Source of the DNA: Balneolales bacterium
GTDB lineage: Bacteria; Bacteroidota; Rhodothermia; Balneolales; HLUCCA01
DNA: 32,064 bases
Direction of reading: 5' to 3'
Assembly: GCA_024711145.1 (NCBI GenBank)
Contig: JANJTJ010000047.1
Span: 1-32,064 of the forward strand
Under the pieces are notes generated by a model, which worked only from the letters and a program-made list of their open reading frames with translations, was not told the origin of the DNA and did not search any database. Below, in pieces: positions 24,705 through 31,557 of the stretch (position 1 is the stretch's first letter; each line of letters starts with the position of its first letter). The translations under genes were made by a program, and so were the position numbers.

Positions 24705-24965
24705 ATGTCATTTGTCCTGTCGACCATCGTCACCTTGGGTGTGATCACCGCGGTGTTTTTCCTGATCCGCCAGTCTCTCCGCCGCTCCGAACGCCTTACG
24801 GGCACGCAGTGCCCCACCTGTGGGCGCGAGATGGACCGCATCCACCGCAATGTGGTGGTCAAGGCCATCAGTTCGGCTCTGCCCATGCGCACGCTGTTCT
24901 GCCGTGCCTGCAAAAAAAAGCGGTATCGGGTGAAACCCCTCAGGACGGCGGCGCTTCCGGAGTAG
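24705..24965 (+). CDS. Small membrane-anchored zinc-ribbon protein, function unknown
   Basis: The 86-residue protein has one membrane helix at about 3-21 ([19 protein letters not shown]), then a basic stretch and a zinc-ribbon-like set of cysteines: Cys36, Cys39 (CPTC), Cys66 and Cys69 (CRAC), followed by a very basic tail. The ribbon would face the cytosol if the helix is an N-out anchor. The ATG at 24705 was chosen because it starts the helix; the frame is open upstream to 24654 but overlaps metK. The gene is divergent from metK, and its last 26 bases overlap the ruvB 3' end tail to tail. No function is assigned. Confidence 0.78.
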
Positions 24966-25974
24966 CGAAGAGGTCGGGCCCGCGGGTCTGGTACGGAATG
25001 CCCAGGTACTCGTAGCCCTTGGGCGTCACGATGCGGCCTTTCGGGGTGCGCTGCAGAAAGCCCTCCTGAATGAGGAAGGGTTCGTAGACCTCCTCGATGG
25101 TGCCCTTGTCTTCACCCACGGCTACGGCCAGGGTGCCCAAGCCCACGGGCCCGCCCCGGTAATTGCCGATGATGGCGTTCAGGATGCGGATGTCCATGTC
25201 GTCCAGCCCGCGTTTGTCCACGTCCAGGGCGTTCAGGGCCTTGTCGGCTATGGCCTCGTCGATGGTGGTTTTGCCGGCCACTTCGGCGAAATCGCGGGTA
25301 CGGCGCAACAGGCGGTTCACGATGCGGGGCGTGCCCCGGCTGCGGCGGGCGATCTCGAAGGCCCCTTGGTCTGTGATGCCCATGCCCAGGATGCGCGCCG
25401 AGCGCAGTGTGATGTGGTGCAAGAGCTCCACGTCGTAATAATCCAACCGGGCGTCGATGCCGAACCGCGCCCGAAGCGGTGCGGTGAGCAGCCCTTTGCG
25501 GGTGGTGGCGCCTACCAGGGTGAAGGGCTTGAGGTCGATCTGGATGCTGCGCGCGGCCGGACCCGAATCGATGATGATATCCAGCTTGAAATCCTCCATG
25601 GCCGAATAGAGGTATTCCTCGATGACGGGGTGCAGCCGGTGGATCTCGTCGATGAAGAGCACGTCGCCTTCATCCAGGTTGGTCAGCATGCCGGCCAGGT
25701 CGCCGGGTTTCTCCAGCACGGGCCCCGTGGTGGTTTTCAGCTTCACGCCCATTTCGTGGGCGATGATGGCGGCCAGCGTGGTTTTGCCCAACCCGGGCGG
25801 CCCCGACAGGAGCACGTGGTCCAGCGCTTCGCCCCGGTTGCGGGCCGCCGTAATGAAAACACGCAGGTTGTCCACCAATTTCCGCTGCCCGATGAATTCG
25901 TCGAGCGAGGCCGGCCGCACCGATTGTTCGAAGGCGGCATCGCGGGTGGTTGGGTTCAGGAGCGGATTCGACAC
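24940..25974 (-). CDS. ruvB: Holliday junction branch-migration helicase RuvB
   Basis: This hexameric AAA+ motor drives branch migration with RuvA during recombination repair. The 344-residue protein shows Walker A GPPGLGKT (58-65), Walker B with DEIH (109-112), sensor GATTR (155-159), the arginine-finger region PLRARFG (166-172) and a C-terminal winged helix ([17 protein letters not shown]). No ATG fits the N-terminus. GTG at 25974 gives [21 protein letters not shown], and the frame further upstream crosses the divergent ppk gene. The spacing and TACCTTTC at 26008-26001 support a short leader. No ruvA or ruvC was seen here. Confidence 0.96.
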
Positions 25975-25991
25975 GGGATTGCTGATTTCGG

Positions 25992-26008
25992 TACTTTCCG
26001 GAAAGGTA
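25992..26008. promoter_or_regulatory. Shared divergent promoter element of ruvB and ppk
   Basis: CTTTCCGGAAAG (25994-26005) is a perfect 12-bp palindrome. It is flanked so that TACTTTCC reads toward ppk (25992-25999) and TACCTTTC reads toward ruvB (26008-26001). Each first T is 34 bases before its start codon. Both genes may use overlapping, mutually exclusive -10 boxes. Confidence 0.42.
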
Positions 26009-26025
26009 CGTCCACCAACCCCTTC

Positions 26026-28083
26026 ATGCGCGACCCCTCCCGATTCCGGAATTACGAACTGAGCTGGTTGTCTTTCAACTGGCGGGTGCTGCATCAGGCA
26101 CTGGACGAAGACACCCCCTTGTTGGAGCGGGTGAAATTCATCGGCATCACGGCATCGAACCTGGACGAATTCTTCCAGAAGCGGGTGGGTGGCCTCAAAC
26201 GGCAGCTCCAGGCCGGCGTGGTGCATCTGTCGGTGGATGGCAAGACCCCCGAAGAGCAATTGCGGGCGGTGCGCGCCGAGGTGAAACAGATGATCCGGTC
26301 GTTGAGGGGCACGTTCTTCGACCTGTTGGTACCGGCCATGGAACGCGAAGGCATCCGGTTCATGAAATACCGGGACCTGCCCGAACCGGCCAAATCCAAG
26401 CTCGACCGCTACTTCGACAAACAGCTGTATTCCATCCTCACGCCCCTGGTGGTGGACCAATCGCATCCGTTTCCTTTCATCTCCAACAAAAGCCGCAGCT
26501 TCGCGGTCGAACTGCGGGACCGCCGGACGGGGGAGAAAGTGTACGGGCGCATCAAGATCCCATCCAACCGGCCGCGGTGGATCAAAGCCATGGAAGAGGA
26601 GAACGGGCCGCTGGTACTGGTTCCCATAGAAGACCTCATCCGATCCAAGGTGGACCGCCTGTTCCCCGGCGCGGACCTGTTGTCGGCCAACGTGTTCCGG
26701 GTAACACGCAACGCCGACGTGGAGCGCAACGAGGAAGAGGCCGACGACCTCCTGGAGCTCATATCCGAAGAATTGCGGGAAAGGCGCTTTGCCGAGGTGG
26801 TGCGCCTGGAAGTGGACGCCGCCACACCGGCCCACGTGAAACAGTGGCTCATGGAACGCACGGGGGTGTCGCCCATCGACGTCTTCGACATCGAAGGCCC
26901 CATCGGCCTGGCCGATGCCGTCGAATTGTACGGGCTGAAAGGGTGGGACCACCTGCGGTACAAGCCCTACCAACCGGGGTTGCACCCGCGGTTGCGCCAT
27001 GCCGGCGACGAAGAGAAGCGGGATTTTTTCGACGTGATGCGGCAGGGCGATTTCCTGGTGCATCATCCGTACCAGAGTTTCGCCTCCAGCGTGCAACGGT
27101 TCGTGGAAGAGGCGGCCGCCGATCCCCAGGTGATGGCCATCAAGCAGACCCTGTACCGCACCAGCAAAGACTCGGCCCTGTTGCACGCCCTCATGCGGGC
27201 CGCCCAGGGGGGCAAACAGGTAGCGGTGCTGGTGGAGCTGAAAGCCCGTTTCGACGAGGAACGCAACATCGAGTGGGCCCAGAAGCTGGAAAAAGCCGGG
27301 GTACACGTGGCTTACGGCCTGGCCGGCCTAAAAATCCACAGCAAACTCACCCTGGTGGTCCGCGACGAGGACGACGGGTTGCGCACCTATTGCCACATCG
27401 GAACCGGCAACTACCATCCGGGTACGGCCCAGTTGTACGAGGATCTGGGTCTGTTCACCGCCGATGAGGACATCGGCGCCGACGTGACCGACCTCTTCAA
27501 TTTCCTCACCGGGTTCGCGCCCGACCAGGACTACCGGCGACTGTACGTGGCACCCAACCACCTGCGCGACAAAATCACCGCCCATATCCGGTTCGAGACC
27601 GAAGAGGCCCGTGCCGGCCGCCCGGCGCGCATCTTCATGAAAATGAACAACCTCGAAGATGCCGACATGATCGACCTGTTGTATGAGGCCAGCCAGGCCG
27701 GCGTACAGATCGATGTGATGGCACGCAGCGTGTGCCGGGCATTGCCCGGAGTGGCCGGGTACAGCGAGAACCTCCGGGTGCATTCCATGGTGGGGCGGTT
27801 CCTCGAGCACAGCCGCATCCATCATTACCATGCCGGTGGCAAGGACATCTGGCTGATCGGATCGGCCGACATGATGCATCGGAACCTGGACGCCCGGGTG
27901 GAAGCGTTGGTGCCCATCCGCGATGCCGGCCTCAAGCGCTACCTGCAGGAATTGGCCGATGGCTACCTGGCCGATACGCGCCTGCGATGGGAGATCACCC
28001 CGGATGGCGGCCACCGGAAAGTGGCGCCCCGGGAAGACGATCCCGGGCTGCACCAGCGCCTCATGGATCGGCACGGGCCCTGA
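26026..28083 (+). CDS. ppk1: Polyphosphate kinase 1
   Basis: The enzyme polymerises the ATP gamma-phosphate into inorganic polyphosphate, reversibly, and is usually membrane-associated. The 685-residue protein has the PPK N domain ([16 protein letters not shown]), middle domain ([18 protein letters not shown]) and two C-terminal phospholipase-D-like domains. Phospho-acceptor His438 is in [11 protein letters not shown], and the second catalytic His595 is in RFLEHSR. Both are offset by three from E. coli His435 and His592. [18 protein letters not shown] is also intact. The ATG at 26026 gives the family N-terminus. Its last 23 bases overlap the small gene on the other strand. No ppx or PPK2 gene is adjacent. 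Confidence 0.97.
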
Positions 28084-28240
28084 ATTCGGCCTCCAGCACC
28101 CGCAGCACCATCCAGGTATCCACCTCGGCGGCGGCTATGGGATCTTCGAGCAGCTCATCCCACAGGGGGTCGTCCTCCAGGGGTCGGCCGGCATCCAAGC
28201 CGCGTTCCAGGCGGCACCAGGCCGGTTCGGGGCGGTTCAT
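28061..28240 (-). CDS. Small acidic protein coupled to the sigma factor gene
   Basis: This 59-residue protein starts at an ATG that overlaps the sigma factor stop as ATGA (28240-28237). The sequence is strongly acidic (about 16 Asp/Glu against 7 Arg and no Lys) and has no membrane segment or zinc motif. A DDPLWDELLEDP core and a helical tail ([19 protein letters not shown]) stand out. The tight overlap argues that it is a real, co-translated gene. By position it could be a small regulator or anti-sigma of the sigma factor, but nothing in the sequence proves this. It overlaps the ppk 3' end by 23 bases on the opposite strand. Confidence 0.6.
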   Translation of the reverse strand: MNRPEPAWCRLERGLDAGRPLEDDPLWDELLEDPIAAAEVDTWMVLRVLEAEFRARADP

Positions 28241-28782
28241 GCGTCCCCCTCGCCCACACAGGTGCGCAAGATCTTGATGATGCGGTGTTTCCGGGCGAAA
28301 CAGCGGTTGGCATCGCGGATTTCGGCCGCATCGGACGGAAACCGGCTGCGGTCGGGTTGCTCGAACCAGCGCAGGATGAACCGCCTTTGGTCGATGGGGA
28401 GGGCCGACAGGCACGATCGTACCCGGTTCAGGCGCTCTCGGTCCACCAAATCCTCCAGGCTGGAGCGGGTATCCACCGGCTCGTAGGCGGCAACCGGTTC
28501 GTTCACTCGGAACGTGCGCAAATGCAGCCGTTGGTATTCGCGTTTGCAGATGGTTCGGGCGTAGGCACCCAGGCGGTCCTCGTGGCGGACCAATCCTTTC
28601 CGGACGGCTTCGGTGAAAGCGATCAGCGTCTGTTGGACGGCATCATGCGCATCGTCCTCATCGGCATGGAACGTGAGTCGCAGATAAAGCAATAACGACG
28701 ACTGGACCAGCCGGAAAGGCGCTTCGACATGACGATCATCCCCAGACTCGATCGCCTCCTTCAATTCAACGATTCCTCTCAT
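28237..28782 (-). CDS. ECF-like sigma-70 family RNA polymerase sigma factor
   Basis: The 181-residue protein has a sigma region 2 (about 22-90: LVQSSLLLYLRLTFHADEDDAHDAVQQTLIAFTEA, then AYARTICKREYQ). Its region 4 (about 120-175: LSALPIDQRRFILRWFEQPD... RCFARKHRIIKILR) has a helix-turn-helix of divergent type. This two-region layout without region 3 is that of extracytoplasmic-function sigma factors, which redirect polymerase to a small regulon. No classic membrane anti-sigma gene follows; instead a 59-residue acidic gene overlaps the stop. A well-formed promoter lies upstream, with about 37 bases of leader. The assigned subfamily and signal are unknown. Confidence 0.85.
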   Translation of the reverse strand: MRGIVELKEAIESGDDRHVEAPFRLVQSSLLLYLRLTFHADEDDAHDAVQQTLIAFTEAVRKGLVRHEDRLGAYARTICKREYQRLHLRTFRVNEPVAAYEPVDTRSSLEDLVDRERLNRVRSCLSALPIDQRRFILRWFEQPDRSRFPSDAAEIRDANRCFARKHRIIKILRTCVGEGDA

Positions 28783-28825
28783 CGGTGAAGGGGGAAGGGG
28801 GTTGTCAGGGGTTTATTGTCCTATG

Positions 28826-28854
28826 AATCTAACAGGGGCGAACCGGCCTGTCAA
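28826..28854 (-). promoter_or_regulatory. Promoter TTGACA-N17-TAGATT of the sigma factor gene
   Basis: On the minus strand TTGACA (28854-28849), a 17-base spacer, then TAGATT (28831-28826) gives a perfect -35 and a four-of-six -10 with ideal spacing. A start near 28819 leaves about 37 bases before the ATG at 28782. It is the only such -35/-10 pair noticed in the window. Confidence 0.5.
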
Positions 28855-28890
28855 TGGGACGAACCGCACAATCGTTCCGGAATTTGGACA

Positions 28891-29832
28891 TCACATCCCG
28901 ATTCGGACCATGGGGCCCGGAGCGTAGGGATCGGGCAGCAACCGCACCTTGCGATACCCTTTGCGGGAAGGCCACCAAGCATCGATCAGATGCAGGGCAT
29001 ATGCGGCACCCAATGCATAGGTGGCGCTCCGTCGGCGGTCGTATGCCGTCACCAGGTTGGCGTGGGCCTGTTCCATGAGGATGGCGAAATCGTCCACAAC
29101 CACCTCCACGGCCAGGTTGTAATCGCGTACCGCTTCCTGATAGGAGGCATCCGCCCGGTTGTGAGCAATCCGGGTGTGGTTCCACCACAAAAGGAGCCCG
29201 ATGTTGAGTCCTATGAGAGCGGTCCCTTTCACCCGCTCCTGCTCATAAAGCTGGCTGATACCCGGTAACGGCGACCACAACAGGGAAATGGTGCGGTCCG
29301 GTCTGAAATAACGGACCACTCGGAAATTCCGATAGGTGTCGTAATTCAAGATCCACGTTCTTTCTCCCCCCATGGGATGCCGCATTTCCAGCCGATAAGG
29401 CCCTTTGTCCAGTGGAAGGTCATACCACGACGGACCCCTGATCAATTCCGCTCCGTTGAGGAAGATTCGGGTATCATCTTCGGTCTCCACATACAGATTG
29501 GCCTGGTTCCTGATTCCGAACCAACCGGATTTCTGAGGATCGAAGGGTTCGAATAGGCGGATGACGGGGTACCGCACTTCCGCCGTATCGCCCTGCTGGG
29601 CTTCAATGCCGAATACCATGTCGGCATACTCCGGATGCATGACCCGGACCATTGTGTAGCCAATAGCTACATCGATGGTTTCCCTGGCGCTGATGGATCG
29701 AAGGGTCGTCGGGTCCTCGTCGAGCATCATCAACAGCGGTTCGATCCCATCCACATGCACCAGGGTAATCCGGGCCCTGGTCATGTCGGGTGGTTGAATC
29801 AGCGCCAGAAAAAACAGCAATGCGGGAATCAT
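28891..29832 (-). CDS. PEGA-like envelope protein with DUF5683-like C-terminus
   Basis: The 313-residue protein begins with a short hydrophobic leader (MIPALLFFLALIQPPD) lacking a basic residue. A PEGA-like beta domain may cover 20-85 (VGYTMVRVMHPEY-type turn). A clearer one covers 111-178 (NLYVETEDDTRIFLNGAEL ... GPYRLEMRHP). From about 184 the sequence SPLPGISQLYEQERVKGTALIGLNIGLLLWW resembles the membrane-associated DUF5683 type, followed by a helical segment and a further hydrophobic stretch (ATYALGAAYALHLIDAWW). It is probably anchored in the envelope and binds surface polymers or proteins. The domain calls are by eye. TATAAT lies exactly at -12 before the ATG, so the message is probably leaderless. 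Confidence 0.78.
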   Translation of the reverse strand: MIPALLFFLALIQPPDMTRARITLVHVDGIEPLLMMLDEDPTTLRSISARETIDVAIGYTMVRVMHPEYADMVFGIEAQQGDTAEVRYPVIRLFEPFDPQKSGWFGIRNQANLYVETEDDTRIFLNGAELIRGPSWYDLPLDKGPYRLEMRHPMGGERTWILNYDTYRNFRVVRYFRPDRTISLLWSPLPGISQLYEQERVKGTALIGLNIGLLLWWNHTRIAHNRADASYQEAVRDYNLAVEVVVDDFAILMEQAHANLVTAYDRRRSATYALGAAYALHLIDAWWPSRKGYRKVRLLPDPYAPGPMVRIGM

Positions 29833-29836
29833 GGGT

Positions 29837-29844
29837 GGATTATA
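29837..29844 (-). promoter_or_regulatory. -10 box TATAAT for the PEGA-like gene
   Basis: A consensus TATAAT reads on the minus strand from 29844 to 29839, with its first T 12 bases before the ATG at 29832. The only room for a start site is at the start codon itself. Confidence 0.48.
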
Positions 29845-29868
29845 GGCTAAAAAAACCGGTCTACTGCA

Positions 29869-29876
29869 TACATTCC
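29869..29876 (+). promoter_or_regulatory. -10-like box TACATTCC for the lipoprotein gene
   Basis: TACATTCC starts 12 bases before the ATG at 29881. With the opposing TATAAT at 29844-29839 it makes a 48-base divergent region in which both genes would be leaderless. Confidence 0.45.
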
Positions 29877-29880
29877 TTTC

Positions 29881-31557
29881 ATGAGTCGGCTTTCACCCCT
29901 ATGGATCCTCTTGTTGTGTGCGGCCTGCGGATCTCCACCCACAGCGGTTGTCCGAGACAATCCGAACGACTTCGGAGGGAGTGCGCCGCGGGTTCCCACA
30001 CCTGAATTCCGCAGCATCAACTGCACCTACACCACGGTGGGTGTCGGTTGGAGTCTGGCGGCCAAGTTGCCAGCCGTCGTACTGGGCATCGTTGAGGAAG
30101 GAAGCGTGTTCGACTCCATTGCGGGTGGCGGCCAATCATTCCGATCGTACCACATACCCATCCCGGAAATCGGTCTGCGGACCTTCCGTTTCGCGGCCTA
30201 TGCGCATCGGGAGGGCCTGTATTCCGATACGGCCGTATACGATGTGGATGTCATCGGCCTGGTGGATTTCACCAAGGCGCCGACCTACCCGAACGGTCCG
30301 TCGTTGGAAATCCGGTCCACTCCCGGAAACAACCGCTTCATCTGTTATCCGGAAATGAGCCTCGGACGTATCCGAGTGGTGACTTTGGCCGACAGCATGC
30401 GCATTGCGCGCGACACCGGTACCGGCTTCGAATCCACCCCGATCCACTACGGTAGTGTGGGCACCTACCTGGACCAGACGTTTGCGGGAGACAGCGTCCG
30501 GTACATGACCCAACCCATCCGTTCGGGGAAAGCCGGGCCGGCTTACGAATCGCCTTGGTTCTACCGATCATATTGGGTCATGAATCCGACCGTATTGCTG
30601 CAGCCCCCGGCCAACCATGTACTGACCGTGCATGATACCGAACACGCGCAAACCACCGCAGCCGGTCCCGTTCGGATCCTGGTGCAGTATCAGGACGATT
30701 ACTCGAATACCAACCGGATCTACAGAGTCGGTGTGGATGGGCAGATCCTGGATCAGATGCCGATCCCACGGGGTTATGTGTTCATGCCCCATGTACAAGC
30801 CCGAAATATGCTGCCCAAGTATCATGAACAATCGGGCCGCTATTACATCAATTATGGTGGCTCATTCATCCGGGAGCTGAGCCCGACCGGTAACAGCTTC
30901 CGCATGGTGAGGTCCTCTGCTTCCGGTATCAGTTATCCCTATATGGATCTGGATGGCGATGCTTTGGTTTTCGGATATCAAAACACCGGAACCGGGCAGC
31001 GGCAGGTAGTCCGGCATGAATTGGTCGGGGGCACCGAGACCGTGATCACGACGTTTTCGGGAACGCTGGTATGGTTGGACCATGATTCGGAACGGGACCT
31101 GTTGATGTGGATCGAACAGGATTCCGAGGGATACCGGATCAAGGCGATTCGGTTGTCGGATGGGGCCACCCTGTACGGCGCATCCCTGCCACACCCGGTC
31201 AAAACCGTGCATCCCTCCGGCAACGACCTGATCCTGCTCGAACCGGGGCTCACCTCGGCACGGTATCTGGTTGTTCGAACCGAGTCCGGTACGGTAGAGG
31301 AGCGGGTGGTTCCGGGGGTCACCCGGTCCTTGGTACCCGACATCCGGGACGGGCACCTGGTCCAGGTTGCCACAGACCGAATCCGGCTCATCCATGCCGA
31401 TCATCCCGAAACACCGATCAACGAGTTCCGACACGTGAACTTTCCACATGGCAACCGACCCATCGGGTTCGGCTCGGGAGAGCTTCCCAACATCATCCAT
31501 GCCTCAACCACCCAGTTGCTCCGACATCAACTCGAATATGGTTATGCCATCCGTTGA
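29881..31557 (+). CDS. Putative surface lipoprotein with FN3-like and beta-propeller-like regions
   Basis: The 558-residue protein has a lipoprotein-type leader (MSRLSPLWILLLCAAC), with Cys16 the likely lipidated residue although the -3 position is Cys rather than Leu. Nine residues on is RDNPND (25-30), shared with the next gene. A fibronectin-III-like beta domain follows (about 38-125; VGVGWSLAAKLPAVVLG), then a second beta region. From about 240 to 550 there are short repeated beta blades (YRVGVDGQILDQ, VFGYQNTGTGQRQ, LMWIEQDSEGYRIKAIRLSDG) like a propeller. Probably it is exposed on the outer membrane and binds something; no enzyme motif was seen. Its end overlaps the next gene by 14 bases. 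Confidence 0.8.
   Translation: MSRLSPLWILLLCAACGSPPTAVVRDNPNDFGGSAPRVPTPEFRSINCTYTTVGVGWSLAAKLPAVVLGIVEEGSVFDSIAGGGQSFRSYHIPIPEIGLRTFRFAAYAHREGLYSDTAVYDVDVIGLVDFTKAPTYPNGPSLEIRSTPGNNRFICYPEMSLGRIRVVTLADSMRIARDTGTGFESTPIHYGSVGTYLDQTFAGDSVRYMTQPIRSGKAGPAYESPWFYRSYWVMNPTVLLQPPANHVLTVHDTEHAQTTAAGPVRILVQYQDDYSNTNRIYRVGVDGQILDQMPIPRGYVFMPHVQARNMLPKYHEQSGRYYINYGGSFIRELSPTGNSFRMVRSSASGISYPYMDLDGDALVFGYQNTGTGQRQVVRHELVGGTETVITTFSGTLVWLDHDSERDLLMWIEQDSEGYRIKAIRLSDGATLYGASLPHPVKTVHPSGNDLILLEPGLTSARYLVVRTESGTVEERVVPGVTRSLVPDIRDGHLVQVATDRIRLIHADHPETPINEFRHVNFPHGNRPIGFGSGELPNIIHASTTQLLRHQLEYGYAIR

Follow-up and report, generated by a model that had tools for sequence, protein, structure and literature searches.

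A candidate reduced, soluble anti-sigma factor encoded in overlap with a divergent ECF sigma factor gene in Balneolales

The locus described here raises the question of what a 59-residue protein does when the start of its gene overlaps the stop codon of an ECF-type sigma factor gene. The window (the whole stretch of DNA that was analysed, 32,064 nucleotides of contig JANJTJ010000047.1 from a Balneolales bacterium, assembly GCA_024711145.1) had been the subject of a preliminary description, which proposed a compact pair of a sigma factor and a small regulator and suggested that the latter might be an acidic mimic. The compact pair is still the best reading of the locus, although not as a sigma factor with an unrelated acidic mimic. 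In our reading, to which we assign a probability of about 0.58, the pair consists of an ECF sigma factor and a reduced, soluble anti-sigma factor. The features of the locus and the corresponding forms in other genomes are presented in Table 1.

Table 1. Features of the window and of short or partnerless loci in other genomes (positions are those of the window).
Feature	Position or size	Strand	Basis or context
ECF-type sigma factor gene, 181 aa	28237-28782	minus	Pfam/NCBIfam matches, family profile, homologues across the order
59-aa soluble partner ORF	28061-28240	minus	Frame, codon-position signal, model, place between sigma gene and ppk1
ATGA stop/start overlap of sigma gene and small ORF	28237-28240	minus	Translational coupling inferred
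ppk1 (polyphosphate kinase 1)	26026-28083	plus	Convergent with small ORF; positional anchor
ruvB	24940-25980	minus	Second positional anchor; start approximate
Sigma-70-like promoter TTGACA-17 nt-TAGATT before sigma gene	28826-28854	minus	Consensus match only
G003 short form	78 aa		Starts 6 nt after sigma gene, then ppk1
G012 short form	87 aa (101 from upstream GTG)		Ends where membrane helix would be
G121 short form	60 aa (80 from upstream start)		Then convergent ppk1
G125 short form	59 aa		Then convergent ppk1
G124 short form	77 aa		Then convergent ppk1
G002, no partner	10 nt		Between sigma and ppk1 ORFs
G001, no partner	8 nt		From sigma gene to ppk1 tail lying in second frame
G126 and G127, no partner	19 nt		Gap
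G078, no partner	11 nt		Gap

Both frames and the ATGA overlap joining them were found as previously described. The final 23 nt of the small ORF lie within ppk1, which converges on it and has its stop at 28083, and therefore no membrane anti-sigma gene follows the sigma gene, in agreement with the earlier claim. The product was also correctly described as soluble, since no membrane segment was found in the 59-mer and its highest 19-residue Kyte-Doolittle mean was 0.87, compared with 2.06 in the membrane form of L113. A purine run, GAGGGGG, is located just 5' of the ATG. When the ppk1 overlap was excluded, G or C was present at codon positions 1, 2 and 3 in 42, 23 and 42 of 52 codons, respectively (position 2 against positions 1 and 3, Fisher p = 7e-6), which is the pattern of the other genes in the window. 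The 59-codon ORF is very probably coding; a chance ORF was considered and is unlikely given this codon-position composition. The encoded protein contains 15 D/E and 7 K/R residues, a net charge of -8.

On the upstream side, the promoter pattern occurred once in 27900-29000 compared with a mean of 0.2 in shuffled sequence. An autoregulated ECF promoter was considered and not retained; upstream regions were inspected by eye only, and it is a TTGACA-type promoter that precedes the sigma gene of the window. The gene immediately upstream (28891-29832, minus strand) has a weak likeness to DUF5683, with an E of 0.13 that falls short of the cut-off. Many relatives have a divergent scpA at the same spot, so that the window is different on this side; scpA was absent from its positions 24901-30000, where the best match was 20/72 residues.

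The sigma factor itself matched Pfam Sigma70_r2 with E = 3.6e-4 and the four best NCBIfam ECF models with E = 2e-6 to 3e-5, all below the respective cut-offs, and no separate region 4 match was obtained for this protein alone in Pfam or NCBIfam. A profile built from 11 sequences of the sigma family matched ECF sigma factors of solved structure, with alignments that span regions 2 and 4 and are best over positions 35-171. Judged by these matches the window protein is an ECF sigma factor, sound but divergent. Residues C124 and C175 (window sigma numbering) were invariant in 11/11 aligned sigma factors, including two which have no partner. A sigma match at E <= 1e-22 was present in at least 118 of 128 genomes of the order, a count which pools copies, many genomes having two.

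In the order as a whole, the usual arrangement is scpA, then the sigma gene followed by its partner, then ppk1 or ruvB. The usual partner is a protein of 247-340 aa which begins with a conserved domain, here called the N-domain (pattern I..Y..G.L...E...LW......P), and continues with a membrane helix, after which come TPR repeats. Among 23 loci of the named collection, 20 contained the sigma gene followed by a 247-333 aa protein starting with the N-domain; scpA was divergent upstream in 17 loci, while ppk1 was found downstream in 12 and ruvB in seven, one of these loci having both. Sigma gene and N-domain lay no more than 500 nt apart in at least 90 genomes of the order, and in at least 86 of these the open frame was 230 aa or longer. 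Beyond the 86 long frames, this tally includes G091 (frame 151, reaching the contig end), G093 (frame 199) and the short forms of G012 and G125; the short cases of G003, G121, G124 and the window stand outside it. The region beyond the N-domain was examined in few proteins only. TPR was recognized by Pfam in two long partners, above the cut-offs in one and below them in the other, and the L113 partner (L113:3628-4416) had a membrane-type segment and, in its model, TPR helices. In a view of 26 genomes the long form was seen in G112, G114, G115, G116, G028 and G034; genomes of this set other than those named in this report for a long form, a short form, no partner or no sigma gene gave no usable locus view. 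The window retains the order of its relatives, with sigma gene and partner followed by convergent ppk1 and by ruvB, and its positional equivalence is that of the ppk1/ruvB side.

More distant arrangements also occur. On contig G000:C134 (14537-15043 and 19512-19670) a second sigma factor of the family was found together with an N-domain protein (263-aa frame), which is encoded on the same strand approximately 4.5 kb upstream, and contig 2 of G006 has similar spacing between the two.

When scored against the N-domain profile, the 59-mer reached 6.8 bits, a value equalled by 16/20,000 shuffled sequences, and 8.0 bits with a second scoring (30/50,000 shuffles), while profile alignment to the family gave P = 0.0008 with 0/400 shuffles as high. 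The 78-aa form of G003, compared with a profile of 23 longer-form domains, gave 24.8 bits (0/20,000 shuffles). Pairwise comparison of the 59-mer with G003, its nearest short form, was no better than chance (130/300 shuffles), and comparison with 17 other single domains was equalled by 0 to 61 of 300 shuffles. The N-domain profile did not return the 59-mer from the genome of the window even at E <= 10, only its own locus fell below E = 0.01 when 59 genomes were searched directly with it (next, 0.013 in G050), and no Pfam or NCBIfam family matched it at E <= 1. In a 19-row alignment of the 59-mer with 18 relatives, G, W and P formed three invariant columns; in the 59-mer they occur in family order with the LW motif at a similar distance from the start, the G-to-W spacing being two residues less than in the relatives. 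Helices were predicted at residues 7-16, 26-32 and 34-57 of the 59-mer (pLDDT 83.6) and at 2-16, 22-34 and 37-60 of the L113 protein, where they are followed by 73-91 and then TPR helices; the 59-mer prediction used the relatives' alignment, so that this likeness is partly built in. Against solved structures the model gave a single Foldseek match (E = 9.9) and no VIA-align match at Z >= 2 (2 chains). Taken with the shared position, on which the case leans, homology of the 59-mer to the family N-domain is likely, although weak by sequence alone. The 59-mer is best read, with support that is weak, as a stand-alone N-domain without the membrane helix and TPR part.

Whether the N-domain is an anti-sigma domain was approached through profile and structure comparisons. 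The N-domain profile aligned in register with zf-HC2 N-termini at a probability of 35% and with DUF4880/FecR-type N-termini at 23%, in both cases with 0/60 column shuffles as high; each comparison set had three rows, the zinc rows being L136, L137 (identical to each other as far as printed) and L135, with L138 left out of the set as its motif was absent by script. Among single N-domains, 2/14 touched zf-HC2 (best E 0.0019) and 2/14 touched RsrA (0.014), and the anti-sigma-E model was also matched; these matches were hardly stronger than those to the unrelated GatE, VEFS-Box and chorismate mutase. None of the 10 matches of the N-domain profile to solved structures was an anti-sigma factor, the best being a 19-residue stretch of rat RAP (E 4.4e-5). 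For the long form, the 50 listed of 1501 fold matches consisted mostly of TPR or designed repeat proteins, without any named anti-sigma among these 50. The zinc motif Hx3Cx2C is absent from the 59-mer. One trait of class I anti-sigma domains is present, namely a small helical domain whose coding sequence adjoins an ECF sigma gene. Profile likeness and gene order together favour, if weakly, the N-domain as a putative zinc-less anti-sigma domain.

The preliminary description had also proposed, as a test, that the small ORF be looked for beside the same sigma factor in other genomes, and the outcome was mixed. A short partner was found at the locus in six genomes (window, G003, G012, G121, G124 and G125) whereas five genomes had no partner gene there (G001, G002, G078, G126 and G127), and in most of the relatives seen the longer protein takes its place. 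The short and missing forms fall into two families, f1 and f4 (genera g10, g29, g38 and g39). Because f3, f4 and f5 all commonly have the long form, the simplest view is that reduction of the partner, and its loss, would each have taken place repeatedly. The genomes G118, G119 and G122 of genus g38, and also G049, had no sigma match at E <= 1e-5; the G119 genome is 98% complete. Within g38, the three genomes without a sigma match thus have congeners which retain both the sigma gene and a short partner. In the draft genome G001, ppk1 is split in two frames (L082:4260-6453; a 639-aa frame and a 108-aa tail), through either an error of assembly or a genuine frameshift.

From the architecture of the common Balneolales form we infer that its three-helix N-domain would retain the sigma factor within the cytoplasm, while the TPR domain, beyond a single membrane helix, would sense or relay a signal. 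In the lineage of the window the membrane and TPR parts would have gone and the N-domain alone would be left, the ATGA overlap allowing it to be read in direct succession to the sigma gene. The 59-mer most likely would still bind newly made sigma factor and would keep part of it inactive; control would then lie in the relative amounts of the two proteins, in their turnover or in a signal from the cytoplasm, instead of coming from the cell surface. A wider proposal is that a membrane anti-sigma factor of Balneolales shrank repeatedly until its gene encoded the sigma-binding core alone, which as a free soluble protein would modulate the sigma factor by inhibition or by FecR-like activation and in the window would be made in step with the sigma factor by the start/stop overlap, converting a surface-signal switch into an internal rheostat. 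We offer this as a tentative proposal, with the odds somewhat against it.

Inhibition of the sigma factor appears likelier, with activation of the FecR/RskA kind a live rival. For FecR, FpvR and RskA, soluble N-terminal fragments (51-85 residues for FecR and FpvR) suffice to act on a sigma factor (PMC9249621, PMC7509140), as would be the case for the 59-mer. Those fragments were laboratory-made or proteolytic while the core in the window is a separate gene, and the outer part of the Balneolales long protein is TPR. The FpvR, FecR and RskA fragments differ in sign. If it activates, the 59-mer would be a co-activator (pro-sigma), a freed domain which constantly stabilises or activates its sigma factor as laboratory FecR fragments do. 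FecR N-terminal fragments of at least 59 residues turn FecI on without signal, and the shortest such fragment is given as 51 residues in one passage while FecR56 fails in another; in the same source the 67-residue FpvR fragment inhibits, so that the sign varies between systems (PMC9249621). Truncated RskA can activate SigK and its N-terminal part is also needed for activation, but that part alone suffices to inhibit (PMC7509140).

Divergence of the sigma factors bears on the same option. Identity to two f3 references was 0.247-0.307 for partnerless sigma factors (n = 5), 0.296-0.356 for those with a short partner (n = 6; window 0.342) and 0.334-0.363 for Balneolaceae sigma factors with a long partner (n = 7), while ppk1 values were similar among the groups compared. 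Partnerless sigma factors are hence more diverged from the f3 references than most short-partner and all long-partner ones, as if the short partner mattered, a contrast that is suggestive only and is not phylogenetically independent. It was absent for the window (0.318) and G003 (0.261) when f5 references were used, neither being above the partnerless range of 0.271-0.319, and it does not separate an activator from an inhibitor. We regard a co-activator as fairly unlikely.

The 59-mer could instead be a functionless remnant, decaying between a membrane anti-sigma factor and complete loss; in favour of this there is a graded series, from the long form through the 87-aa G012 protein cut at the membrane helix and the forms of 59-78 aa to none, with G118, G119 and G122 lacking a sigma match too. 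Constraint on the short form is weak. Between G121 and G125 its dN/dS was 0.45 (58 codons) or 0.36 (55 codons), compared with 0.042 for the sigma factor and 0.030 for ppk1 of the same pair, i.e., the short form is approximately 10-fold less constrained than its sigma factor (0.45 against 0.042). Sigma factors of the family of the window also diverge fast, those of G002 and G003 being identical at 62/184 positions compared with 514/731 for ppk1. Against decay, the short form of G121 and G125 is under purifying selection, far weaker than that on the sigma factor (55 codons, bootstrap 0.14-0.75, with 0.75% of the 400 replicates reaching 1 or more), and on this point the earlier expectation of a constrained small ORF held in the sole pair that could be measured. 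The short form is open in three g38 genomes, and G124, although too distant for dS, keeps the frame; near relatives of the window suited to a selection test were not found, and its family comprises four genomes. In the window the ORF still has the ATGA overlap together with a strong signal of codon position, and seven stand-alone N-domain genes with no adjoining sigma gene of the family indicate that the domain alone can persist. A remnant is, in our judgement, unlikely.

An unrelated ORF, either arising by chance or a new gene at the former place of the anti-sigma factor, would account for the marginal sequence similarity to the family and the little space before ppk1, but it is improbable given the codon-position bias, the start/stop overlap and the matching place of the gene, together with G, W and P in family order, the similar LW distance and the profile comparison which no shuffle equalled. 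The acidic DNA mimic of the preliminary description, which would block a DNA-binding region of the sigma factor, can be dismissed, as the net charge of -8 over 59 residues on which it and the term "highly acidic" were based is real but ordinary for the family (0 to -9 over the first 59 residues of 41 related N-domains), what is conserved is G, W, P and a hydrophobic pattern, and the 59-mer reads as the N-domain of a longer Balneolales protein.

A reduced, soluble anti-sigma factor, the reading we prefer, has to be set against known systems. A soluble anti-sigma factor is a known kind, because approximately 35% of proteins with a class I anti-sigma domain (ASDI) are reported to be soluble, approximately 72% of the soluble ones carrying a zinc motif (PMC7406223), and a review names ECF groups with soluble anti-sigma factors (PMC8999054). 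The 59-mer resembles the ASDI proteins without zinc in being a small helical domain beside an ECF sigma gene which in many relatives is N-terminal in a membrane protein (PMC7406223). It differs in lacking Hx3Cx2C, in being only 59 aa long and in its resemblance to a membrane protein cut short. The anti-sigma factor of EcfG, NepR, is likewise small (approximately 60 residues) and soluble with no membrane part, and is not known to be of the same family. A further comparison is with the Balneolales N-domain/TPR protein (L113:3628-4416; Gracilimonas L117), which occupies the same place after the same sigma family and has the same N-domain (weak by sequence), but is 247-340 aa long with a membrane helix and TPR which the 59-mer is without. 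What would be new is a core of 59 aa, with no zinc motif, that remained once the membrane and TPR parts had been lost. No paper combining "Balneolales" and "sigma factor" was found among those searched, and in literature on truncated, orphan or soluble anti-sigma factors, TPR anti-sigma factors and Balneolaeota the case was unreported among the matches listed.

In laboratory tests, anti-sigma fragments without membrane or sensor parts act on sigma factors, some inhibiting and some activating, and the soluble 59-mer would be a natural counterpart of such truncations. With one conserved locus that has a long form, a stub, the core only or no partner in related bacteria, natural proteins could be used to test both the sign of the fragment and the need for it, and the stepwise dismantling of a surface-signalling system would become visible. 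The pair in the window is real and modestly interesting, and is best used as one entry in this natural truncation series.

The stand-alone N-domain genes found elsewhere in the order encode soluble proteins of 53-70 aa which scored 50-61 bits against the N-domain profile (L068:1986-2171, L069:2019-2231, L070:1977-2180, L071:1980-2141, L072:2004-2204, L075:2032-2208 and L076:1907-2110), and suggest that cores of this kind may be regulators that have escaped notice. The stretches around the seven genes contained no sigma gene of the family. Six of the seven are located in genomes which also show the long form, and in G081 and G082 the stand-alone gene adjoins mreB (assigned from L072, and for L070 by likeness).
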